Shown here: piece by piece, positions 38,083 through 57,964 of the stretch | Layout: each line of letters opens with the position of its first letter | Position numbering within the stretch: position 1 is the first letter of the stretch | Assembly (NCBI GenBank): GCA_000442015.1 | Contig: KE561047.1 | Location: forward strand, 240,063 to 304,062 | Source of the DNA: Rozella allomycis CSF55 | Taxonomy: Eukaryota; Rozellomycota | DNA length: 64,000 nucleotides | Direction of reading: 5' to 3' | Program-made: the position numbers and the translations under genes | The notes under the pieces: generated by a model | Seen by the model: only the letters and a program-made list of their open reading frames with translations | What the model was told of the DNA's origin: nothing | Database searches by the model: none

Positions 38083-39222
38083 TTAGATGCCTTCTTCCTT
38101 ACAAAGAGAAGGACCTGCTCCACATTTCGCATGAATTATTTCCACCGGAATATTTGTTTTTGGAATATTTTCACCCAATTCATTAACAATTGTAACACAT
38201 TCATTAAAATCTCGAATGGACTTGAACTTTGTGACATCGACCAATTGTTTGAGTAACCGCACAACATCTCCTGTGTACTTTGATCGCATGTATAATACAG
38301 GATTTGGTCCCGCATCGAAAGTGTAAGCAACTGCTGTTTCTCCTGCCATTCTATTGTACTCGTGCACAAACTCGATAAACCATCTTGAATCTTCATTTAA
38401 ATATATGATCGGAGGAAATGTATCCAAACAGACAGCATGAAACTGATTCGAATCTGCCATTGTTAAATTTGCAAATGTTTCGAAATCCTTGGCAATGATA
38501 GCTCTTTTCATCGTTTCCAGTTTCGCAGGCATACCCTCAACGCGATGTTTGAACAATGCTGAAGACTTTACGGTTTGTTGCATTCCTACTGTAGATCCAA
38601 CCTTCTTCTTTTCAGATTTTACAATGCATACGAGAATATCAAGGTCTTCCCAACTGTCGCAAATACTATCCGCAACCGATGTAGAGGAACTGTCACCTAA
38701 ATGCCACTCAACAAGACCAGGAAAAAGAGAGCGACATGAAGATCCTGATCCAAGTCTTGCAAATTCTGACAATTCAGTTCTAGTCAGATATGCATCCAGG
38801 TGATACAACAATGATAAACAATACACAAGGCAAGAATACCCGCTGGCAGAAGAAGCGAGCCCAGCAGCTGTCGGAAAAGTGTTTCTTGATTTGATAGTAA
38901 TAAAATGCCTGGGATCTGCAGGTGATTCTAGGGGACTTTCAGATTTGTATTTTATTTGCCTGTTGCCGCATCGTATGGCAATGTTTCGCATTTTATCAAT
39001 GACTAGTTTCATGCGACCAGGGATTTCAACTAGTTCACCGTTTAGAACAAGAGAATCTTGCTTGATTTGTTCATTAGACTCTACACAAGTGATAGTCTTG
39101 ATGTGTTCCATAGAGAGAGTGACAGAAATAGAGCCGTTAGTTGGTAAATTTAGTTCAACATTTTCTTTTCCCCAATACTTTATGACGGCGATGTTTACTG
39201 GAGACTGGCAAGTGATTTTCAT
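38083..39222 (-). CDS. ERG19: Mevalonate diphosphate decarboxylase (MVD1/ERG19)
   Basis: A GHMP-superfamily enzyme that makes isopentenyl diphosphate from mevalonate 5-diphosphate, the last step of the mevalonate pathway for sterols and isoprenoids. Typical blocks are SPVNIAVIKYWGK, LPTNGSISVTLS, FPTAAGLASSASGYSCLVYC (phosphate-binding loop), ARLGSGSSCRS and the catalytic aspartate in AYTFDAGPNPVLY. It is full length at about 380 residues and intronless, unlike most neighbours. The ATG at 39222 is preferred; six further in-frame codons lead back to a non-ATG codon. All active-site residues that I can name are present. Confidence 0.95.
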   Translation of the reverse strand: MKITCQSPVNIAVIKYWGKENVELNLPTNGSISVTLSMEHIKTITCVESNEQIKQDSLVLNGELVEIPGRMKLVIDKMRNIAIRCGNRQIKYKSESPLESPADPRHFITIKSRNTFPTAAGLASSASGYSCLVYCLSLLYHLDAYLTRTELSEFARLGSGSSCRSLFPGLVEWHLGDSSSTSVADSICDSWEDLDILVCIVKSEKKKVGSTVGMQQTVKSSALFKHRVEGMPAKLETMKRAIIAKDFETFANLTMADSNQFHAVCLDTFPPIIYLNEDSRWFIEFVHEYNRMAGETAVAYTFDAGPNPVLYMRSKYTGDVVRLLKQLVDVTKFKSIRDFNECVTIVNELGENIPKTNIPVEIIHAKCGAGPSLCKEEGI

Positions 39223-39314
39223 CAATCTTGATTGCACCAAGAAAATTCCATTTTAGATCAAAATAAAATGACAAAATAATCATTTGAAAAATATTAACAT
39301 TTTTGAATTGATAT

Positions 39315-42300
39315 TTATTCAGTTTGATTTAGGACCAAACAAACACCTTGCAAAACCCAATGACTGGAATGTTCAGAGGTAGCGATATCAGCTTCAAAAA
39401 CGAGTCCGACGCCCATAGCATTTCTTCTCTGCGAGGTAGTATAAACGGGTGTTTTCAAAGTGTTCATGAGTTTCAGCTTGTGCGACTCGATAGGAATAAT
39501 TCTCAGAATAGGCAGTTCACAGCTCATCGGGCCACCGGGAACCATTTTAGCCAGACAATTCTTTTCAGCATCCCAGGTAGCACCTTCCAGAAACAATCCA
39601 CGGGCGTAGCATCCAAAATTGGGGCGTTCGGGAACCTGGTCAATGTCCTTGTACGTTGTGACCTGAGTGTACAGAGTAGAGCGGTCCAGTGGCCAACCGT
39701 TTTTGCGACATGTAGTTTGAACGAGAGCAGTTAGATAAGCCTCGGGGATGTGTAAGCCTGACAGCCACATGACCATTGGTTCACCTGATTTAGCCCAGGA
39801 GTTGTACTGCTGGTATCGTTTTTCAAAATGGACCATCCAATCGCCTAAATTTTTCAGAGTTTCTGGAGCCAGCTGTCTCCACATGAAGGGAAGTTGACCA
39901 TTGTAGAGAGAATTTGCAAGATCGTCGAGAGATTGGGACATTCCGATTTCACCTTTGAGAGCTCTAGCCAATTCCTTTAAACTTGATTGCATGGTGTCTA
40001 CAAGAGTGTTGAATCTTTCCAATTCTTGCAGGAGAACAATTTGTGTTGGCGAAGGAGTGCCAAATGTTTTGTATAGTCTAGCGATATCAAAGAGAGGAGG
40101 CAAGCGTGATTGAATATCCAAAGCGATAGAGTTTATGTAGTCTTCTCGGCTTGTTCCCAGAGCGGAAGAGTTTGTTCTTGGCTGTAGACTGATCAAGAAT
40201 TGCCACATTTCTTTAACAGAGTTGGACAAGTACCCAATTTCAGCATTGGAGTGAAGACCGAATACTTCAGGTGAGTTGTTTAAAGGAAGAGATTCAATGT
40301 ATTCAAGAAATGCATCCCTGGAGGTTGCTTTAGGAATTGAATAGTCGACCAAAGAATTTGAATAGAAATGAAAAGGTTGAAAAGAATCGAACAGAAAGTC
40401 ACCCAAGTATTCGCCAAGATAAGTCATCAAAACTCTTCTATCGTAATCATCAGTGACTCTTCCACCATAAATAGTTTCGCCGATTAAATACTTGATGCTT
40501 TCCCATGGCACTTTAGATTCATTGTTTGTAATCATTTGATTTAGATAAGTTTTGAGAATATTTAAAGAGACTCTGAAATCAGATTCATTGAAATCGTATT
40601 TAACATTCCAGCCAATTTTGCCATACTTGCTTCTCTCTTGAACAACAGCGTGAAAGAATGCTACAACAAAGACTAACGGTCTATAATAAGAATGTGCAGA
40701 TTCAGAGAGCATATCATTTGTTAATCTATAATAATTAGATCTTAAATTCAATTTGAGACCATTTGGCGGTTCAGTGACAACTTTGAGCGATCTTTGTAGG
40801 ATGCCAATAGGAAAACTAGAAATAGGTTCAGTTGTAAGCCACAATCTAAAATCTTTGTGAGGCTTATCAATCTTATCTAAATATTTTTCCAAAGATTTCA
40901 ACCAATTCAACAAGAGATGGCAATTCTGAAGCATAATCCATTGGCCTCTAAGAATAGCGGTTTCTAACAATTGCATAGCTACTGGCGCTTGGCCCTGACC
41001 AAGAGAAACAAATTTCAATCTGTTTCCAGCGAATCCTACAGCTTCAGCTAGTTTAGTCAAGTCAGCAGCTGGATCAGCACCAGGACTCAGAATAAAAACA
41101 ACAGGAATAAATGGCGTTGTTTGGTCCCAAATATTTTGATAGTTTATTACTGGCGGTGTGACATACTTTTCACCAAGCGTATTAATAACAAATCTTGTCA
41201 TTGCGTTGAATACTCTATCTACTCTGAAACATCTCAATAAACACAATTTCTGAAATTCCGTTAATTCTTTATCAAATGGAATTTGTTCAACTTCAGTTAA
41301 TTCAGATTCAGCCCATTGCTTCCATTTAGCTTCATTGTTGGAAATTGAATCAATAATAAACTTGAAAGTGTCATTCAAAGAAGAAAGTCTATTCAAATCT
41401 TTCCATCCTTGCGCTGTAATCCAATTAAATGGTTTATCTTTGGGATTCTCAATTGAAACATTTCCTATCAATTACCCAAATCTATTTTAAATACCCTTGT
41501 AGAAAAAGTCTAGTTCATTTGAATCAATTAAACCATCGCCATCCAGCAACTTTACAGTCATTTGAAACGAAAACATTAATTTATGCTTCTCAAACAATCC
41601 AGTGCACACATAATTATAAACATTAATCTTCAACGTTTCGATTATTTTATTCAATCGCTTAGCTAGAACAGGATCAGGTCTACTTTTAGCCAGCGACATG
41701 TGGAACACTTCAAGAAACGCATTTAGTGAATATTCATACATTGGATTAATCGCTGGCAGTTCACTCAAAACAAAAAACAAAATAGCTCCACCTAAACTAA
41801 AATTTAATACATTTGATTACATTTAGCAACTGGTCTATATGCATCACGAGAAGCTTCAACTTCCAACGACGTCTGATTCGCCAATATCAACTTTTGTGCA
41901 ATTTCATTAGCTTTTGATTTAGTTTCTTCCAACGTTTTAATCAATTCAATGTTATCCAACATCAATCCAGTTGAAGACGCCAATTCCCTCAACAATGTAT
42001 TTTCCAATTCCTCCAACAATGATTTATTCTTGCTCATTTCCAACACTAATTTCTCTCGCTGCTCCTCCAACTCTTTTCTTTCATGGCCAACAACAACATT
42101 CAGCAATTGATCCTGCAACCCTTTCAAAGTCACACTGTAATTAATAATCATCGCAGAACCAAACAGTTTAGGCGAGAATGATGGATTAGATAGCTTTGTC
42201 GTCAAGTACAATCTAAAATTCGGATCATAGTCTACTTCCTTGTCACCCAACACTATAAACTTTCTTGACCCCTGAACTTTGATATTCTTTTCCAAAACAT

Positions 42301-45300
42301 TATCAATTACAGGGTCAATGTACTCATCAACATCTTCAAACAGAAACGGCAACCCATAAGTGATCGCCAACTCTAATTGTTTAAGAAAATCATGATCATT
42401 AAATGAAGACACTTTTAAATTGTTGTTCATTTCTCTCTTTTTAATCCAATGCAACGCCTGCTGCTGTGGATCAATACAAATTGGAAATCTAGATGCTTTG
42501 GTTGTCAATATCCCATTCTGAATAGACAATTCATCCTGTGGCAATGACTCTGATGCCCATCTACTAATCTCAACATCTGTAGTCTGAAATTTCTCAATTT
42601 TAAAATCATTTGACAGGGGTATATTTCTATTCTTTAAATCATTAAACCATTTGTTATAAACCAACTCAGTCCTAAATTCCCAATTAAATGCACCAGTGTA
42701 GCTCATAAACGCAGCGAGTAACAAACAATTCCCAACCAGCTCAATTTTCTGTGATTTCAAATAATCCAAATCTTTTGACCATCTAATCCTCTCAGATTCC
42801 AGTCCAGAGATCAACTTATCAGCCGCAGCCAATCTTCTCTCCATTAACGCAGCCATTTCCTTCAATTCAACTTGCTCAGATTTAGCTTTTTGGAACTGAT
42901 CTTGCAACTGTTTCAATTCATTATTAAGCTTTTGCAACTCTCTAGTAATATCATTATATTCTTGCAAACTTTCAGCCAAATTCTTTTCCAACGTAGCTAC
43001 AGCTTGTCTTTTAGGTGCAATCAACTTTGCCACATTGCAATAGCCAACCACTGCTAGAACAAATTTCAATAATCCTGCCCCAGCAACTGATATTTCCTTC
43101 ATTCTTTCCAGCGTTATTTCTGTTTCTCTTAGAACATTTTTAACATTCTTTATTTGCTCAGTGGAAATGGAATCAACATCCATCGTCATCAAACTAGTCT
43201 TAAAATCACCTATTGTAAAAGATTAACATTGAATACCAGCAGCCATCATTCCTTTGGCACTCTTCCACGATACATCCTTTATATTCTTCAAAATACAAAT
43301 ACATTCACAAACCTTTTCACAATTAAATAAATTTTATACTTTTTGAACTTCTTTTGGTGGTTTAGCAAACGATCTAATTTCTGTAATTTCAGAACTACTT
43401 AGATTTTGTAGAGCCAATTTAGCTTCTTCTAGAGCAGGCAATGCTTCAGCTAGAGCAACTTCAGCTTCTTCTTTATCTTTAGCTATTTGTAAATTTTGTG
43501 CATTCAATTCTCCCTCTTTTCTTGTAGCCAATTCTTTCTTTTCTTCAGCTACTGCTGTATTTGTTGTAATAATTTCCAATAGTTTGTTACAAGCTTCAGT
43601 TTTGTTCCTTACAGCGATATTCTGTTCAGCCAATTTTTCATTCAAATCATCCAACTGCCTGCTACTCTCTTCCAACTTGTCTAGACCAGATTCTAATCTT
43701 GTACACAACTGCAAATTTTCTTGTCTTTTTTCTTTTAATAGTTTAAAGAAATTGTTAATGTAATCTAGATAATTCTTTGGTGTCATGAAACAAGATCGTT
43801 TGTATTTAATGTAGAAATCTTGTCCTGCTGTGCCTGCTGATTGATGAACAAATACCATGTGGCCAACTATTTCCTTTTTGTATTCTTTTGGTATCATTTC
43901 ATCTGTCAACACTGACAAGAATGCTTCTGCTACTGAAAACAGAGCTTGCTGGGGCCACGGTGGAAACCAATTAATAACAGTATTATTAACCAAACCTTTT
44001 ATTAAATAAAACAATTAATTTACCTAGATTAATTAAAGTCTTTAATCTTTACCTGGAAAGTTTCTACATCGAGTTCTTAATAAATCACCATTAGGCGACA
44101 TACACAACACAATATGCAGATTCTCGGCACATTTATTAATAAAATAATTCCAAATTTTCTCTTTTGATTGAATATTAAATTTAGCAGCTTCATCTCTAAT
44201 CCCCGAAATAATCCCATCCTTTTCATCATCAGCAAACAATGCTGGAACATACCCACTAGTTAGAATATTATTAATAGACTCTAAAAACCCTTCCTGAATA
44301 ATCTGCGCATCAGTCAGCATGAAGACCAACTTTTTGTTATCCAGTCCAATCATCTTATAAACTTCTTTTAAATTCTCTTTGAATTCTACTTCACCATAAC
44401 CTCTGCTCAGTGTTATTTCATAGATTGAATAGCCAGCTGTAAATGAAGCCAATTTTGTTAATGACTGTTTACCACTTCCAGCTACACCAACCAACAATCC
44501 ATGACCCCTGTTCATTCTAATGATTCTATGGATTCGTATTAAATGTTCCAATGCATCATCAAACAAGACTAAATTCATTGGTTTATTCTTTATATTGTAT
44601 TCTTCTATTATTTCCTGTATAATAAACTTGACAGCAGTGAAATCCAGTAAATCTTCATACAACCTTGCATTCTCTTCCTGAATCGCATGTCTGAAATCTC
44701 CAAATAAGATTGGATCTTTTGTGGCATAATCAAATTCACTTTCAAATAATTCTAAAATGATTTTATTGATTTGATCAGAAACTAATTTCTTATCTTGATC
44801 TGATATCAACCTATCATGAAATATCCTCAATGATTCATTCCTCCACAATCTAATTATTCTCTCATTTGAATCAAAATGATCAGGCGTTGAATTACACAAC
44901 CCTTGAAACACTCTTGAAATATCTCTCATATTAAACAAATAATGAAATTTGCTGGGCGTTGGTGGCAATTTATTCTGTACAATTGAATAAAGCTTTAATG
45001 TTGCTGAAACGAGATTATTCACATTGCTAAATATTTCTTGCTTGAATACTCCAAAGTGACCATTCAAAATTGATGTGAATATTTTCTGTAATGATAAATC
45101 TTTTGGAAATGAAATGTTAAAGATATTAAATAAACTCATAAATCTTGAATCTACTTGTGATCTACCCCCTCCAGGTGGTCCCATCGCTGCTAGGAATTGA
45201 ACATCCTTTAAATATTTCCAATTCAATTCTTTTCCTCTATCATACAATCCTCCCTTTTCTATCAATAACTTTAACAATGCAATTGGTTGTTGAGTTCCAT

Positions 45301-48300
45301 AAATATCTTTCTGTGGCATATTCAAATCATCCACAAACACTATCAATCTTTTACCTGGATTATAAGTGTAAATCATTTATACCTAATATTAAATTAATGA
45401 ATCTTTCGTACCTGCTGTTGGGCCATAAGTATCCTTTGTTCTCTTTTCAACATTAGCTTCCAAATTCACTTGAACATCCATCGAACTAGTTCTACTGCTA
45501 AAATTCATATTCAACAAAATATTCTTTTCATCAGACAAATTTCTCAAATAATGCTGCACAGTAACAGTTTTGCAACATCCAACACCCCCAATAAACAATG
45601 CCGGCTTTTTATTAGAAACTGTCTTTTCTAACAACCAACAATGTCTCATAACATCCATCGTGGGCACTAGTATCTCATGCCACTTTAGACTCCTGTCATG
45701 CTTGTATTCTGGTACATAGGTATTCCAACTCTGCCATTTACATTCATTCACATCAAAATGGTAATCATAAATAGTTCTATCACCACCTGGTAACTCACCA
45801 ACTGTTATTGGTTGCGCCAATGTAGTAATTAGAGTCATTTCAGACAGTTTCTTTATAACATTATCAAATCTCTCCCTATCTTGTTCAATCAACACTCCAC
45901 CAATAGACCACACAATACACTCTATGAATACAGCTTCAATCATTTCTGGTGTGAAATTAACATTCACATTCAGAACACTCTCCAATAAATTACACAGTTG
46001 GAATATGTAGTTGCATGTTGATACATTCACTATTGTTTTAGGTGGTTTGCCTACAAACCCTTCAAACACTCCCTCTGTTATAAATTCAATAGCCATTGGA
46101 ACATATTTAACAAAATATTTAGATAATATTTCTCCTTCTGTTTTGTTTCCCCTTTGATTAATCCATTTCTGAAAGTATGGTTTATAGCCTAAATTCTTTG
46201 GATCCATATAAACCTTTTTGAGAAGTAAGATAAACAATTACCTATGTTAACATTTCAATCATTTCATTACCTATGTTAACACTTCAATCATTTCATTACC
46301 ATTCCACATCTACTAATCGTTGCAGGCGAGGCATACTGCAAATCACCAACCTCAAACAACAACGAAACATGCTTCTGCAATCTAATTCTCTCTCCATTTG
46401 GCAACGTCAATATCTTATTATCATCCATCACTGAATTCATATTCTCCACCCAAACAGCATCAACATCCCCATCAAACAAGATATACTTTCTTTCCTGTAT
46501 CGAATATTTAAATAATGATTACCTTTTTATCTGTTGGCTTGTTGCATTCTCTAAATATATTCGACAACAATCCATCAGTCCAGTCACGCGTATTTGGATC
46601 CAGTATGCCATACAATTCATGCACTGACACAGCCTTGGCATTCAATGTATACAACTTTGTTGCTAGCCCTAGTTTCGATTGTGCTTTGGCCAACGTCTCA
46701 ATCACTACACTCTTACCACCCTGTGTTGGCCCAACAACCTCATTATAACACACAAACATTCATACCATTGTTGTATGTCTAGTCATCATTGTCTCATACA
46801 ATTGAATAACCTTGTCAACCTGCTCTGGCACAATTATATAGTCTCCCTCTCTCAAACACTCTTCAACCGCATCATTAAAACTGGGATACCGGACTCTTGG
46901 ACAATCTAACCCTGGAAACAGATCAGAGATCAATCCAAGAAACAATGGAACATCGTCAAATATAAATTTAGGCAGATTCATATCTCTTAACGCTCTCATT
47001 AAAACAACATCTTCGTTTAAATCAGGTGAAGATCTTTTCAACTGGCCAGCCATCACAAGAACACTCTTCAAAGCTCTTAAACCGAAATCGTAGTGATGTT
47101 GTCGTGATAATTGTCCTTTTGCTAGTTTGTACAATACAACCATCTTTTTCGCTAGTAATTTGGCCATTGTAAAACCTTCAGAAAATAACATTATTTCACA
47201 AATCAATTCCAAGTCAGGCACAACCATAACAACAGGTCTGAACAAGGCTTTCAAATTATCTGGCAATTCAGTTCTCCCAGCATACCCAGGATTCTATTAA
47301 AGTTTCAAACCTCTATTTACCATTGTAATGTGAAGAGTAACTTTCTTATCAAGAGCAATTTCATTCCCTTCAAACTGAAACCTCTTCAATCCAAGAGACA
47401 GAGCATTTTGAATAGTTTTAACCTGCGCTTGAATAACAGACAAGACAGCCAATTCAATTCTATTAAATTCATCAAAACAACCCCAAGCACCCGTTTGACA
47501 AAGACCAGAAAATATTTTTCCCATTGCTTTAAAGTCTAATCCTTCACCACAGTTAGTAACAATACACAAACAGCCCATCGCTTTGGCTAAATCTTTAACA
47601 GTCTCTGTCTTTCCTGTTCCAGCAGGACCTAAAGTTTAGATTTAAAATGTGAATTACCAGCAGGAGAACCACCAAGTTTTAGAGAGATTGCCAGAGTTAA
47701 AGTCAAGTAGCATCTATCGGTTAAAGGAGTGATGACTAGTCTTCCATTTAAACCCATGTACTCATGACCATAATCAAATACTCCATTGCATTGCTTAACA
47801 AGGATATCATCAATATTTTTATCCCAATAGAATCTCAGTTGACTTGACCATTGAAAGTCTTGTGAATCAATAACACTGTCTCTAACAAATTTGTCAATAA
47901 TGTCTCTAGCATGAACATCAACAATAATCTGCGTATTAATTTTCCTTCTATCATTTGAATTCAAATCTGATCGCACTTGCACGACTAGGTCTTCCAATTG
48001 AGATTGTAACAATTTGCTGTATTTCTTCATTGCCAATTTATCGCCACTTTTTATTTTATCAAATGAATCTTCAACACCAAACGTCCACCACACTTGAGAC
48101 CCAGCTAAGCCAACCATTCCTTGGTATTTGTACAACCAATCTTTTCTATCCATTGTGACATAATAATAAATAGCTTCTTTATGAATTAATCTATTCGTTC
48201 TTTTCATTTCATTTTGAACGCTTGTCATCCATTCTTCAACTCTACCAACAGCTGGCACTGGCTGCACAAACTCTAACACTTCGCCTTCAGTTGATTGCAT

Positions 48301-51300
48301 TCCAACAACATTCTTTTCATTCCTACCAGTTCCAAACTGCAACTTTAAAACATTATCAAACATCTTTATTATATGTTCTTGAATACTTTTTGGATCATGA
48401 CTACCAAGAATACTCAACAATTCATCATCACTAATGAAAAAGAATCTTGGGAATGCATTTCTCTTGGATTCTAAATAATCACTTAAACTCTTTTGACAAC
48501 TTTCTAATTGTTCTGATAACTCTTGCAACACTTGCAGTCTATTATCTGAATTACATGCATCCAACACATTGTTATTCTTTGCAGTGTCACTCATTATCTT
48601 TTTAAATGATTTATCAATCTTGTCAAACTTTAATGCTTCTTCAGGTAATCTATTTAATACAAAATAACATTGTTACTGTTGTCTGATGTCTCCACTTCCA
48701 ATGAAAATACTTTCCAAGTACATCCACTTTCTTTGCACAACCATCCAAACATCTGTAACTTCTCCAATATGTGACAAAATCTTTTCCCATTTCTGAACAA
48801 TTGGCAAAAATGGAATCGCAAACTTTGATGCACTCATACTCTGCAAATTCATCGCATTATCATCCAACAGTGTTATAATCTCATCTATTGCCCCCAGAAT
48901 AAACCCTCTATCATCATTCCCTTTAATAACATTCAATTAACACTCTTACCTTTGGTATATTTAACAAGTGTAAATTTAATATTCTTCCAAGTAACTTCAA
49001 CTTCCTTTAGTCCATTCTCAATACTCAACTCTTTATTAGCAGCACCCACAATCTCTCCAATACTCTCTGAATGTTCATGCAAATTCATACTAAACAATTT
49101 CTCAAGCGTAAATGTTTCAGGATTCATATCAAACTGTTTACCTCTTCAACAAAAACAATTCAAATTACCTGTAATCTCCATCAACTTTTTCCAATGTCTT
49201 TCTCTCAATGCTTCATTCTTCAAATCAGAGTACAATGGAATAGAATCCTTAAAAGAATTAATGTTCGCTGCAACAATATTAAATGGTCCCATTTGTTTAA
49301 TCTCTTTTGGCAACTTTTTCAATCTCAACACAAATGTTTCAATCGTTTTATTCATTGATGAAATATCAATCAACGACCACAAAGACTTGCTCCATCCCAT
49401 AACAGCCTTTTTCACATCATTATAAAGCTCATAAATGCCACTCAACAAAATCATCTCATTTTCCAAATCATACAAATCAGAAAACGTTGAAACATCCAAA
49501 TTAAACAACTTTTCGGCTGAAACTAGATTCTCCCTTCTTTGTTGAAACTTTACAATCATTTCTTTCGCTGTACTCAACTGCGTAGTTCCCAAATCTAAAT
49601 CCTTGTCTTGCATCCTCGGCCCATGCTTTATAAAATCATCCAAAAATGTTTTAATCTCCATTTTCAATTCATTCACTTGTCTTATCGTCGCTTCAGTAAA
49701 CTTTTTCTTAATTGGTATCAACGATCGATCCAGCCCCTTGGCTTTCTCTGTCACTTCATTCCATCCCTCAACCAGTCCATTAGCTCTTTCCACTTGATCT
49801 TCTTCAACTTTGATATCATAGATAATCAACGTTCTATAACTCTCAATAATGTCTCTATATTTAATCTCCATTTCTTCTCCAATCTCCCTCACTTGGCTAA
49901 TCACACTCAATATAAACGTCAGCTGCTCCAACGTCTCTGGAGTCTTTGACAACTCTTCATGAAACTTTGCATACTTATCCTCCATGGCATTCAAATCTTG
50001 CAACACTGAATCGTTCAACAATTTCCCTATAGATGCGATCCACGATTGCGCCTCATTATATATTGCTGATTGCAAGGGTGAACTAATCACTTTGATAAAA
50101 TCAATCTTTTTAAATGTTATCTGCGTTTCAACATCCTTTGCCAACTTGAAATAAAACACCAACTTTTCATCATAAGAAATAAACGACGGCTTCTTTTGAG
50201 CAAACTTTTCCAAAGTGATTGTCTTGTCCACTTTCCACAATGGCCGGTATCTCCTCCATGAATCCAAATACTTTACAAGCCCATTAAACGTTCTAGTCAG
50301 CGCCTGATTAATCTGAACCATTATTGCAACTATATTAGCATTGGCCACAACATCCGAATAATAACTAAAAATAAATGGCTCCTCTTCATCAACTATCTTT
50401 TGTGGTGGTGTCAAGATACAAGTGCCATTCTGCCATCTAACAAACTTTTTCGTAGCTTCAACAACTGATCTAACAAATTTTATAGTCATCTTTTGAATAT
50501 CAATCATATTAGGCGACAAAACAATCTCTGGGGCACTTAAACTGGCACTCACTTTAAACAAGGGTTCATGTCTCATCTTCAACTTCTTCTTCACAACAAC
50601 ACTCCCTGCCTTTTTCATCAACGTTAAACTAAACATTGACGCCAATTGATACAAACTTGTTATCACCATTTGATTCAACGCTACAAATATCTTCTTCTCC
50701 CAATGTGCATAATAATTTCTCAGCTGCGGTGATCTCCCCGTATTAGTGTTCGCTACCATGCTCTCCATTTTAATCATCAACGGGGTTATACTCGTATACT
50801 TTTGCACCAACCCATCAACAATCACATTCTTACTCTTATTCATACTCTCAAAAAATTCCTATTCATCAAACATCAAATATCTTACTTGCGCATCCATTAA
50901 TTCTTCATCTTTCAATGATGGCTCCTTCAATAATGTAGCCTTGGCTATTGAATCAACGGCATGCGCTATATTCGTAGCATTCTTATGCACTTGGTTAACC
51001 AACGCAGCAAACTTGCTGATTTCTTGATTTGCCCGCTGCAAAAAGTCTGTAATGCCAAGTGAATTCCAATTTAATCTAGTCAACCCTGGCTTTAACACTC
51101 TTTTCAACCCCTGGATCTGTTCAACAAGCAGCTTCTTTTCTGCCGAATCCAACATGTTCAATTGCTCATTATAACTTTTCAACATCATAGAAAGTTGCTC
51201 AACATACGAATGATACTTTTCTTCTTGCAGTGCTATATTCAAAGCTGACGATGGAATAGTGAAGTTCATTCTATCTAAATACTTTGCTTCTCTCACAATA

Positions 51301-53627
51301 TCCTTCAATTCCGGTTTATAATTCACAACAAATATTTCTTCTTTGCTTCCATCAACTGCCTCTTTGGCTAATATAAACGCCTTCAAATATCCCAGCGAAT
51401 TGCTCTCCACGTGATCACACCACTGTCTATAAAGTTGATCTTCATATTCCTTCATAGATTTAGCCACAGTCAAATACTTAGCAGTCACTTGCTTTCCCAT
51501 ATCAGAATCCAACATTTCTATCTAATTCAAATCATTAAAAAATACCTTTCATAGATTGGAATCGCAATATAGTCTTTTTGATCCTCTGAAACAATGATCT
51601 TGACCATGATATACTTCCAGCAATCTTGGGCTCATTCTTGTTCACTGGTGGATCATCCCTGCGTGATTATGAAAATTCATAAATTACTTTGACTTTACAA
51701 ATATTTCATTAATTATATCAATCTCTTTGCTATACTGCTCCAAAATATCATTAAACTTTTGCAACAGTTGCTTGTTGATTGATTCGCGTGATTTAATATT
51801 TTTAATGTTCAATAACAAATCAAAGGCACCTTCAGCCGAACGAAGCTTTTTAAATGATGCATCAATAAATTGTTTAGCCATGTCTTCAATCTGCAAAATT
51901 TGTTCTCTAAACTTTGTCATCACAATATCCCATTGCGGTTGATGCTTTTTGTTAAACAAATCAAATGTTATTGATTCAATTGGTATTATCAATCCTTCAA
52001 TTCTCTTAATCACTTCATCAATCTGCTGTGGGTCACCTGTAACCGCCTTCAACTCTGGTCCAAATATACTATAAAATTGTTCCATAACTTCCACAACCTC
52101 AAACAAATCAGCACATCTTTGGGTCATATAATTGGTTTGCTCAAACAACTTTCTTCTATCAAATTCCCATCTTTGATCTCTTCCAGATTGCTCAATTTTA
52201 TCTCTAACTTCAAAATACGTTCTACTCCATGCTTCCAATAAATTCTTTGCATCACTTATTGTTTTCTTGGCCTTTTTGGTTGGCTCCCTTAAAATTTCAC
52301 GAACATTCACTATCCCCATAACTTTATTGGATATTTCCCACGCAATTCTCACCATCAATGGGACCATCCTTTCATCTCGGTTGTAATGACGTGACAAAAT
52401 CCAAACCATCTTGATTGCATTCATAAGAGATGGCAAGGAATCCTTTCTTTAATTTTGGATGTTTAAATTACCTGCACTCCCTGCAATGAACCTGTAATAA
52501 TAGATTTAAAATGTCTCTCCAAAGTACCCAAGAATTTTGTATTATCTCGTGCTTCAGTATACAACTTTTGTAATTCAGCAAGCTGTGTAGTCAAAGGACC
52601 GTGATGGACTGTCTCTGCTTGTTGCACAATATGAATAATAGACTTTGCAACAGGCAAGCTTAATTGCTCATATAACGTCGATAAGTTGCCATTTCTTTCC
52701 CTCCAGTAGTCAATTTCTGCTATTGGACCCTATTTATTATTAAAAAATCTTTTACATGTCCCTGTGGAACCTTCTTTGTTTCCTTGTCCAGAATACTGGC
52801 AATGATCTTAACCCATTCGTCTGCAACTTTATCCAACTCTTCCAATTTAGCGTTATCTTTTAATATAGCATCCTGATGACTAATATCAATGTTTGGTATT
52901 CTTATTCGAACATCTCCAGCTACTTGCTGCACAGTATGCCCGATTTGAGTTGCAAACTTATTCAAAGCTTTAGTCAATAAAAAATTTAATAATTACTAAG
53001 GCGAACTTCGTTTCGAAAATTATCATGTTCCCCGGTTCCAATATTGTTCAACATGGGCAAATACACTTCATTGATCATTTGTTCCAAGGTCACAAGTAAC
53101 TGTCCGTTCATAGAACCAATGTCAAATTCTCCAGGTAAAATATTGTTGGCATCTATTGAAAACACGGTGACATTTGTTACCTTCCATGTTGGCAGGGACA
53201 GGTATAGGCACACCGTCTCTTGCAATACGAACAAAATACATTGACAAACACTCAGAAATGATCTTTGGAAACTTTTTAGCACATACACGCAATTTCTATA
53301 TTTAACACCCATGCTATTTACTCCAGAATCAATGTAGAACAAAACAGCATTTACATTATTGCGTCCCTCTAAAAAGTCATACAGAAGCCATGAACTTTCA
53401 AAGTTTTTTTCTTTAAGCATCTCATCAAATAAAGCAAAACATTTTTCTTTATCTTCAGCATAAAATAATGGTGAAACTCGCAATTTTTCTTTTATCCAAT
53501 GATGCCTCATGTCGGCGCTAGGTGGCACTCCAGAAAGTGCTTCATTAGCATTTCCAGGAGTTTCATGTTTTAAAATTCCAGCGTCTGGCGGAGGCTCAGT
53601 GGTAATTGGGCGTTCAATATCAGCCAT
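39315..53627 (-). CDS. DNAH10: Axonemal inner-arm dynein heavy chain, DNAH10 (I1 beta) type, apparently complete
   Basis: About 4,500 codons in roughly twenty exons. The tail starts [14 protein letters not shown] and includes the segment ending at 48673 that reads [14 protein letters not shown], then SGDIRQQLPEE, which favours DNAH10 over other types. The linker ([19 protein letters not shown]) precedes the AAA ring. P-loops are [19 protein letters not shown] (AAA1, near 47,600), GPTQGGKS (AAA2, near 46,720), GGVGCCKT (AAA3, near 45,580) and GVAGSGKQ (AAA4, near 44,480). The stalk coiled coil lies at about 42,800-43,800, and the C-terminus ends [12 protein letters not shown]. It forms the two-headed I1/f dynein that regulates flagellar bending. 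Single introns are 27-30 nt; three composite introns are 57, 57 and 86 nt. Confidence 0.93.
43996..44052 (-). other. Composite intron made of two back-to-back GT-AG units (29 + 28 nt)
   Basis: Removing all 57 nt restores [16 protein letters not shown] in the DNAH10 frame. Read on the minus strand, the intron splits at an internal AG|GT into 44052-44024 (29 nt, starts GTAAAGATTA, ends TTAATCTAG) and 44023-43996 (28 nt, starts GTAAATTAAT, ends AATAAAAG). Each unit alone has the size and ends of a normal intron here. Confidence 0.75.
45355..45411 (-). other. Composite intron made of two back-to-back GT-AG units (29 + 28 nt)
   Basis: Removing 57 nt restores [21 protein letters not shown]. On the minus strand the internal AG|GT gives 45411-45383 (29 nt, starts GTACGAAAGA, ends AATATTAG) and 45382-45355 (28 nt, starts GTATAAATGA, ends ATAATCCAG). 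The two units do not resemble each other in sequence, so they are not a recent duplication. Confidence 0.75.
46214..46299 (-). other. Composite intron made of three back-to-back GT-AG units (29 + 29 + 28 nt), two of them duplicates
   Basis: Removing 86 nt restores [20 protein letters not shown]. On the minus strand the units are 46299-46271 (29 nt), 46270-46242 (29 nt) and 46241-46214 (28 nt). The first two are identical except for one base and both run from GTAATGAAAT to TTAACATAG. The third starts GTAATTGTTT and ends TCAAAAAG. Confidence 0.78.
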
Positions 53628-55370: not shown

Positions 55371-57964
55371 TTATTGCCAAAGTTGTTTGACCCATTGAAT
55401 GCCTTCATCTGCCTTCACGGAAACAGCATTTATTTCGGTTTGTGTTCTTTTGGAACGCCAAAGATGATTCCATAGACTAAGCCAATTGCATAGCTGTGTC
55501 GACGTGGTAAATTCTTCTTGTAGAAAACCACCTACATTGGAATTCATTATCTTATTATAGAACGCTTTATCTTGAAGAAGTTTAAATAGCAAATTTGCGA
55601 CGATTCCAGGACTATTAGGAGGTACCAAGAATCCATTCTTTTGGTCGACAACTTGCCAAGGGATGCCTCCAATTTTAGTAGTTATCTAATTGAATTTTGT
55701 AATAAATTCTACTATAGGAATTTTTTTCATTATGGCTTCCGAAACCTTTATTTCAAAACCCTCGCGAATTGATAATTGAAGAGCAGCAAAAGCACCTCGT
55801 AATATAGTGTTTAAAAGCTGGTCCGATGGAGGTAATCTCGCTATAATTATATCGTGTCTGTATTTAAATAAAGTCGTATCATTTTGAATCATGTTAAGGG
55901 CTTGCTCATAAACCAAAGATCCATCTTTTAGGGCGAACTAGAATCTTTACCTGGATCGTCAATTGATCCATGACCACATACCACCAATTGAGGTTCATGA
56001 CCGTTTTTGGCGTCAATGTGGTCGCTATCCAACATGCTCCTTAATATTTTGTATGAATTAATAACATCAGGAATTCCTAAGAAACTGAATAACATAAAGG
56101 AACTATACCTTTGGAAGGGTCGAATCGACTTATTTGGACTATGTNCTTAATATTTTGTATGCATTAATAACATCAGGAATTCCTAAGAAACTGAATAACT
56201 TAAAGGAACTATACCTTTGGAAGGGTCGAATCGACTTATTTGGACTATGTATGGTCTTGAAATGTCCAACTTCGGCATATTCTGCTCACCGCAAATTCTC
56301 CTAAACATGTGAAGATAGTACTCAATGTCCCTATTTGATAGAGTCTTATTTAATCCATCCAAAGGATCAGTTCTACGCACCATAAATTAAGAATTTACGT
56401 TGCAGGCATAAAATATACCTTAGATTTGTCAATTTCAGATGGCACAAATGAATTGACGGGGTGACTAATAAAAGCGTCACATTTCTCGATCTTGCCTTTG
56501 AACAAATAATCCCAGACATCTTTTTGTGATGAATTTAACGATAACAAGTCTGTTCGAATCTCAATGTGCGAACGATAAATCAAAACGCATTCCGAGTTAA
56601 CTTCCTTTATAAAAGGAATTAGTCCCACGACTTTACAGATCGAAGAACATTCTTACCTTGTGGATCGTCAAGAACTATTATGTCTGCAAGTTTGAAAACA
56701 CTTGACTGCCAATACCTTTCAGCGTTAAATCTAGACCATTTCTCATACAGATCTTTTTCATCAATTGTCAAACGTTCAGTGCTAACACCTGTAGTTGACA
56801 ACATAAATTTAGTCCTTACCCTGTAACACATTATGTATTTTTCTTTTTGTGACCTGAAAAACAGCAGGATTAGGTCTAACGACGTACCATTGAATATTCA
56901 ATTGGAACAATTTGCTTAGCCGAATTAAGGCGTGTCGCATCAATGCGACACCACCTCCTTGAGGGGTGGAGCTAATGAACGATACATATATATTTGGTTT
57001 TAGATTTGAAAAAATAGATACTTGTTTTAGCAAATTCTTCCATAAATACTCTGAACAAATTTTCTCATAATCATGTAGGTTAACTAAGCGAATGGCATTA
57101 CAATCTACTTCAACTCTGTTTTTAAATCCGATAGAAAGTCTTGGAATGGAGACGTTAGGTCCGAAGAGTCCAATAGCTTTGCGAACAGCCGAATCTGCTC
57201 GTTCATCCGTTGTAACACCTACATTTATAATAATATAAATTTAAATACCAGATGTATCAAATTCACATGGAAGTATGTCTAGTTCTAGCCACAGCCTAGA
57301 CATGAATGATTGCAAGACGTCTATTTTAATTTTGGCGCCAGACGGTGTTGAAATTGTCGTTGTAAAACAGTTTTTACATACACTCACTGCAATAATCTTA
57401 TTTTTCTTTTCTTTCTGATATTTAATCAACCAGTTAAGTAAGTAATTTTCTAATTGAAAACCTAGATTAGACATTATTCCTTTACGTTACTGATTTTATC
57501 TAACGTTTTTCTTACAATTGAGTCATCATTAGCCAAAAATGCGTGAGAATGATGTAAAGTGTCATTCCACGATATTTGGTATTCAGGTTCCCACGAAACA
57601 CCTCTGATCATTGGACTGCTTGAGCCTGAAAGAGAACAACTGTCTCCGCACTTTATTTTTCTCATATCATCTGTTTCCATATTGAAATATATTTTTTCGC
57701 AAAGTGTTTCCAAAATGTAACTCCCATCGTGTATTGCAACACAAAAACGACCAATCCAATGATTCTGACATAGTTCATAACCGGATTTCTCGTAAGAATC
57801 ATTGCATGAGATGTCTTGGTTTCCGTGATTTGTAAATAAATTATTTTTTGAACATCTATTTCCACATGAACAAAACGCTACTTATCTGGCTCGATTTCCA
57901 CCTCAATGCCTACAAATACTGACGGGAAAAGGCATGGTGCTTCAAATTGCTTCGTTTTTGACAT
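55371..57964 (-). CDS. Fungal trehalose phosphorylase (GT4 family, clock-controlled gene 9 type)
   Basis: A retaining GT4 enzyme that reversibly phosphorolyses trehalose; such proteins are also called trehalose synthase or CCG-9 in fungi. The N-terminal domain includes NHWIGRFCVAIHDGSYILE. The core shows FISSTPQGGGVALMRHALIR, then AFISHPVNSFVPSE, the sugar-nucleotide-type region YIVQISRFDPSKG, and the GT-B block FAALQLSIREGFEIKVSEA followed by PIITTKIGGIPWQV. Introns are 26-32 nt. The exon carrying PDVINAYKILRSML is interrupted by one N (56145) flanked by duplicate 105-nt copies; collapsing them gives an intact frame. I start at MSKTKQFEAPC. Confidence 0.85.
56040..56250. repeat. False tandem duplication around an unresolved base (assembly join)
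   Basis: Bases 56040-56144 and 56146-56250 are the same 105-nt sequence with two differences (tatgaatt/tatgcatt and aacataa/aacttaa), and the single N at 56145 separates them. The unit starts in an exon of the trehalose phosphorylase and ends in the next one. Keeping both copies destroys the gene; keeping one restores it. Confidence 0.85.

Follow-up and report, generated by a model that had tools for sequence, protein, structure and literature searches.

The 86 nt that interrupt a DNAH10-like axonemal dynein heavy chain gene in Rozella allomycis are probably several minimal but complete spliceosomal introns in tandem, which seem to have been generated by duplication of whole introns and would be spliced unit by unit within a size range of about 26–31 nt. 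Such an array sits at one exon–exon junction, where units of 27–31 nt, all bounded by a GTA donor and an AG acceptor, directly abut. The window analysed here is a stretch of 64,000 nucleotides at the end of contig C132, and positions given without a contig refer to it. The reverse complement of positions 46214–46299 consists of GTAATGAAATGATTGAAGTGTTAACATAG, GTAATGAAATGATTGAAATGTTAACATAG and GTAATTGTTTATCTTACTTCTCAAAAAG in direct succession (29, 29 and 28 nt; minus strand, units 1 to 3 at 46271–46299, 46242–46270 and 46214–46241), so that the division without remainder reported in the initial annotation is exact. The sequence also bears out its description of the units: every unit starts with GTAAT and ends with AG, the joints are AG|GT with zero exon bases between them, and units 1 and 2 differ at a single base. 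Unit 3 shows no similarity to either. There is exactly one partition of the 86 nt into GT...AG units of 25–32 nt, and shuffling the interior by dinucleotides gave no such partition in 4000 trials. The 86-mer occurs once in the genome. Its excision creates the junction SRCGM^VYMDP, and because the alignment with the DNAH10 chain (PDB) is gapless over this junction, none of the 86 nt is represented in the protein.

The host gene lies on the minus strand at 39315–53627, with a predicted start codon and a TAA stop at 39315–39317, and a slice of 793 amino acids of its spliced product has DNAH10 chains as best PDB match. The gene model contains 20 intron sites, namely 17 single introns of 26–30 nt and three stacks (29+29+28, 29+28 and 29+28). 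The single introns at 46495–46522 (28 nt, a reference for unit size) and 46739–46765 (27 nt), both on the minus strand, are ordinary examples. Stack 2 (minus strand, units of 29 and 28 nt at 45383–45411 and 45355–45382) and stack 3 (minus strand, 29 and 28 nt at 44024–44052 and 43996–44023) interrupt the junctions GPTA^ and NFP^GLVNN, respectively, both of which are gapless against the DNAH10 chain. These two stacks came from the gene model and not from the stack pattern, and are the only ones without pattern-selection bias. Two candidate introns were dropped. The first gene model had a 72-nt intron at 45340–45411, whose final 15 nt belong to the exon by homology (GKRLI), leaving a true length of 57 nt; a 182-nt intron at 39165–39346 reaches from the end of the dynein gene into the first part of a diphosphomevalonate decarboxylase gene. 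The likely start of the latter (39222, same strand) is separated from the dynein stop by 92 nt, and the gene finder had fused both genes (39222–39317). A DDX47 gene (435 amino acids) is a further neighbour of the DNAH10 gene.

Introns were called with a custom spliced-gene finder, applied to the window and to additional parts of the genome. The lengths of the 147 single introns used below are no evidence for a size limit, since the model from which they came favoured 25–32 nt, and a model without length preference was therefore also run. In gene models with a score of at least 40, with the two stack-chosen loci excluded, it called 174 intron sites, 127 of which are 26–31 nt long (125 free of N), so that the 26–33 nt originally quoted for ordinary introns is about right. 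The other sites measure 18–25 nt (2), 32 nt (1), 33–107 nt (15, of which 11 free of N) and 108–400 nt (29, of which 22 free of N). The 11 N-free calls of 33–107 nt comprise the three DNAH10 stacks, a doubtful 28+27 site and seven undivided calls of 46, 49, 59, 69, 74, 84 and 98 nt. Some longer undivided introns may exist beside the stacks, contrary to the early suggestion that longer introns survive only as stacks. The calls at C132:11318–11376 (59 nt), C132:143977–144022 (46 nt) and C1:9924–9972 (49 nt) are either longer introns or gene-model errors. With a setting that made introns cheaper, 148 of 224 undivided calls fell at 26–31 nt, and long calls were more numerous.

The final model, which favours 25–32 nt, gave 175 sites: 149 single introns of 26–32 nt, four stacked sites and 22 undivided calls above 32 nt. 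Stacked sites are hence rare in unselected sequence (4/175), being the three in DNAH10 and the doubtful 28+27 site at C132:127451–127505. Among the 22 undivided calls, ten have N inside or adjoining, one spans the end of DNAH10 and the start of the mevalonate decarboxylase gene, one resembles Snf2-type coding sequence by eye, and ten of 134–307 nt were left undecided by a coding scan. This model left no N-free call of 33–107 nt, but it penalised those lengths. The longer undivided calls of the model without length preference slightly lower our confidence in the reading as stacks. A survey of fungal introns gives a density of 2.5 introns per kb for Rozella (PMC8476143).

The spacing of AG|GT was followed across the genome (9.97 Mb in 213 contigs). 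Two successive AGGTAA words lie 26–31 nt apart in 246 cases, against 8 at a period of 20–25 nt and 13 at 32–37 nt, whereas a reversed-pattern control is flat over the same three periods (64, 66 and 68). AG|GT at a spacing of 26–31 nt is thus about 20–30 times commoner than at neighbouring spacings; the initial annotation had staked its reading on an excess of internal AG|GT at 27–30 nt, and the outcome speaks strongly for it. Chains of two full units followed by the start of a third number 157 genome-wide, compared with 23 for the reversed pattern. The first 100 of these 157 matches hold at least 59 chains in at least 28 clusters; the richest of these clusters has at least seven chains, and the longest chain extends over at least six units. 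A looser genome-wide pattern was no commoner than its reversed control (261 against 251), presumably because a single junction with free ends is common by chance; stricter patterns were therefore used. Five AGGTAA words at C31:4471–4602 (minus strand) occur at intervals of 24, 33, 33 and 36 nt, multiples of three, and may therefore be a coding repeat.

Larger stacks are found in two further genes, whose loci were selected for their pattern hits. A glycogen debranching enzyme gene (AGL, contig C65) contains stacks of 29+30+27+27, 31+31+28+31+28+31 and 29+29+29+27 nt, and a gene for a Sec7-type ARF-GEF (SEC7, contig C87) contains stacks of 30+29+30+29+28 and 30+29+30+29 nt, followed by two of 29+29+29+30+30+29 and 30+29+31+31+27 nt. 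These stacks have four to six units each and reach 180 nt. Once its four stacks and six single introns are removed, the Sec7 stretch reads open for 822 codons in a single frame, until an N is reached. Alignment with homologues runs without gaps across the first and third AGL junctions and the second and third Sec7 junctions; a one-residue gap adjoins AGL junction 2, and Sec7 junction 1 falls within a variable stretch (the aligned slice covered Sec7 junctions 1–3). The three genes together provide ten stacks with 41 units of 27–31 nt, and each stack has only one partition into units of 25–32 nt. Shuffling yielded no partition in 4000 trials for seven of the stacks, one in 4000 for AGL stack 3, and 82 and 238 in 4000 for DNAH10 stacks 2 and 3.

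Other observations at these loci may be added. The exon that follows SEC7 stack 1 (L028, near position 488) shares its first 13 nt with the last unit of the stack, and may be a unit that lost its AG and turned coding. The debranching enzyme (L027, reverse strand, near GGTAATTCATTTTCTTTATTGAG) has an in-frame insertion of about nine residues relative to a PDB chain, which reads like an intron without its former acceptor. Matches to the dynein motor (PF12774) occur on C27, C29, C30, C39, C82, C97, C132 (two loci), C140, C175 and C212, those on C82, C30 and C212 being short or partial. Among the matches listed, same-strand AGGTAA chains lie within about 10 kb at four of eight dynein loci (C27, C39, C82 and the window gene). 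The dynein heavy chain loci seemingly with stacks, besides the window gene, are C27:3149–9689, C39:6034–8823 and C82:52982–56777 (minus strand), and that on C27 has at least six chains in 6.5 kb among the matches listed.

By their splice signals, the units of a stack resemble single introns. With a model built from the 147 single introns (taken at 26–32 nt), the donors of first, internal and last units scored 1.8, 2.3 and 1.4 bits on average, compared with 2.1 for single introns and −4.4 for exonic decoys (n = 2045, 26–32 nt); mean acceptor scores were 0.5, 0.9 and 0.4, compared with 0.9 and −1.3, respectively. Stack units thus share the splice-signal statistics of single introns. Of the 152 partly spliced products of the eight stacks whose flanks are clean, 149 contain a stop codon in the stretch tested; the three that stay open all derive from Sec7 stack 1. 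AGL stack 2 and SEC7 stack 4 were left out of this count because their cut flanks, with an intron or N within, are not open even when fully spliced.

Similarity between units was judged against the 99% point of random pairs of single introns. This mark is exceeded by 15 of 31 adjacent pairs, by 5 of 42 non-adjacent pairs from the same stack and by 21 of 747 pairs from different stacks, which indicates that copying is mainly local. The same figures bear on the proposal that the units are introner-like mobile introns inserting beside existing ones. The units are numerous and spread over many genes, and the between-stack count is slightly above the 1% expected; similarity is nevertheless local, and comparison across the ten stacks revealed no clear dispersed family, which makes such an origin very improbable.

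A more serious alternative, although still an unlikely one, is that the stacks are minisatellites within ordinary longer introns, with the first GT and the last AG used in a single splicing step and the internal AG|GT being nothing but a word of the repeat. Very similar neighbouring units do occur, the first donor with the last acceptor would give an identical mRNA, and a few longer undivided intron calls remain. However, 16 of the 31 adjacent pairs do not exceed the 99% mark, several of them as dissimilar as unrelated introns, and AG|GT is kept regardless, a retention that in the dissimilar AGL and SEC7 units is partly due to the choice of loci. Spacings just outside 26–31 nt are also rare genome-wide, a rarity that an unconstrained repeat would not give. 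One-step splicing is disfavoured because it leaves the AG|GT of dissimilar units at 26–31 nt unexplained. Arrays of complete introns, the preferred reading, have no coding cause for this narrow spacing, because they are spliced out; most simply, it would arise because each unit must fit the spliceosome.

The number of units in an array may vary between alleles. Across a single N, exon copies that are 197/198 identical in AGL and 44/44 identical in SEC7 are accompanied by arrays that differ, and in both genes the last unit differs beside identical exon. These copies are apparently two allele pairs joined at a single N, and this comparison of copy number consists of two exon-identical pairs with unlike arrays, each beside an assembly joint. 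In the window at 56040–56250, two near-identical copies of 106 nt (98% match) lie on either side of a single N, and probably represent overlapping contig ends left unmerged, a joint of the same type as in AGL and SEC7. All three joints show that the assembly has duplicated ends across single Ns, as would suit the suspicion that extra units are artefacts of collapsed or expanded short-read repeats. This is extremely unlikely as an explanation of the stacks, since most units differ and duplicated reads cannot yield dissimilar units, the DNAH10 stacks are free of N, and the periodicity is genome-wide; the number of near-identical single copies could still be wrong.

The flanks of the arrays offer a hint of how they began. 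An exonic AG before the intron or GT after it accompanies 9 of 10 stacks but 56 of 147 single introns (p = 0.0017, in a post hoc test on ten stacks in three genes), an excess that fits duplication through slippage or unequal exchange between intron ends. The exon starts that follow stacks are more similar to the stacks than those that follow single introns, with a score of 81 against a mean of 64.2 (p = 0.001), as might be expected if the units stemmed from duplicated AGGT-containing coding sequence (the Rogers model) and not from a resident intron, and the 13 nt common to SEC7 stack 1 and its following exon point the same way. That stack alone, however, contributes 17 points to the score of 81, no such excess is seen for upstream exons (64 against 65.3), and the units bear the signals of introns, not of exons; a coding origin thus seems improbable.

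For duplication of a resident intron, the following course can be proposed. Unequal exchange or slippage between the short repeats that flank an intron, an exonic AG before it and a GT after it, would produce an exact copy of the intron, and once two units are present, slippage by 29 nt in any register would preserve whole units. If the spliceosome accepts about 26–31 nt from donor to acceptor, each unit would be recognised by intron definition and removed singly. Any order of removal would be possible, since a normal donor–acceptor pair is restored at the joint whenever a unit is lost. Duplication would be tolerated because every copy is a complete intron of accepted size, and given the size window introns could grow only in whole units, in a quantised manner. 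We infer the size limit and unit-wise recognition from lengths and spacing, and removal unit by unit would follow the same logic. An upper size limit of the spliceosome had been suggested at the outset, as one of two ideas, and the excess of 26–31-nt spacing lends it support; the other, that duplication is tolerated because each copy can be spliced, is likewise favoured by the sequence, and the two appear compatible and to belong together.

On balance, we lean towards a wider reading of the Rozella arrays as intron satellites gated by the spliceosome, that is, polymorphic minisatellites within conserved genes (several flagellar dyneins, a Sec7 ARF-GEF and the glycogen debranching enzyme) that grow by whole units only, so that the number of splicing reactions would vary by allele for the same protein. 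If units are removed singly, the arrays constitute a natural test of intron definition, with respect to size limits, order and the number of splicing events per junction. One genome displays whole-intron duplication, a rarely seen step of intron gain, at many stages, and a maximum intron size is suggested as the physical cause of quantised intron growth. As a warning for annotation, stacks may break gene models.

Several known systems invite comparison. Zero-length exons, or ratchet points, are AG|GT sites that act as acceptor and then as donor in long animal introns (PMC8605326). The Rozella stacks are alike in their AG|GT joints, of which there are 31 internal ones in the ten stacks (AG|GT follows from how the partition is defined), and in that no exon base remains; they are unlike in their location, which is not in long introns, with steps of about 29 nt in whole arrays of 57–180 nt. 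In the tandem repeats of human UBC and VCX3A, a border AGGT acts as both donor and acceptor, and splicing softens repeat expansion (PMC10809524). Every Rozella junction would fit such a dual-specific site, but the repeat unit of UBC is coding and variably spliced, whereas in Rozella an entire non-coding intron forms the unit, and homology shows the array to be wholly absent from the product. Stwintrons of ascomycetes are described as two U2-type introns at one site that are removed consecutively (PMC8469720). They are nested, the inner intron usually splitting a signal of the outer one, whereas the units in Rozella are whole and the arrays exceed two; when abutting parses were enumerated, each stack had one partition into complete abutting GT...AG units.

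Introner elements produce intron copies in bursts, in fungi as well as in protists (PMC9860276); of two papers on Micromonas and Amoebophrya (PMC3879977, PMC7789003), the first mentions nested or merged introners. Introners disperse to new sites, whereas the Rozella copies stay side by side: similar introns at many loci are not what the ten stacks contain (21/747 between-stack against 15/31 adjacent pairs). A search for the terms Rozella and tandem found neither in the searchable text of PMC9860276, and no report of stacked introns in Rozella was found among the literature matches listed, subscription papers being outside the scope. Closest in origin are introns gained by local tandem duplication or repeat expansion in Cryptococcus (CNN00420), potato and fission yeasts, bounded by AG|GT or AGGC (PMC2395259, PMC4974935, PMC3629103), those of Cryptococcus being polymorphic between strains (PMC2395259). 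As described there, the gained introns lie within larger coding repeats or one intron spans the repeats, whereas Rozella has abutting introns, up to at least six; AG|GT-bounded tandem copies are present here too, with 15 of 31 adjacent pairs similar, but the copied segment is an intron and not an exon. Judged from their sequences, the Rozella arrays would therefore function like chained zero-length exons and have an origin like that of introns gained by tandem duplication, while belonging fully, as arrays of whole minimal introns, to none of the kinds compared here.
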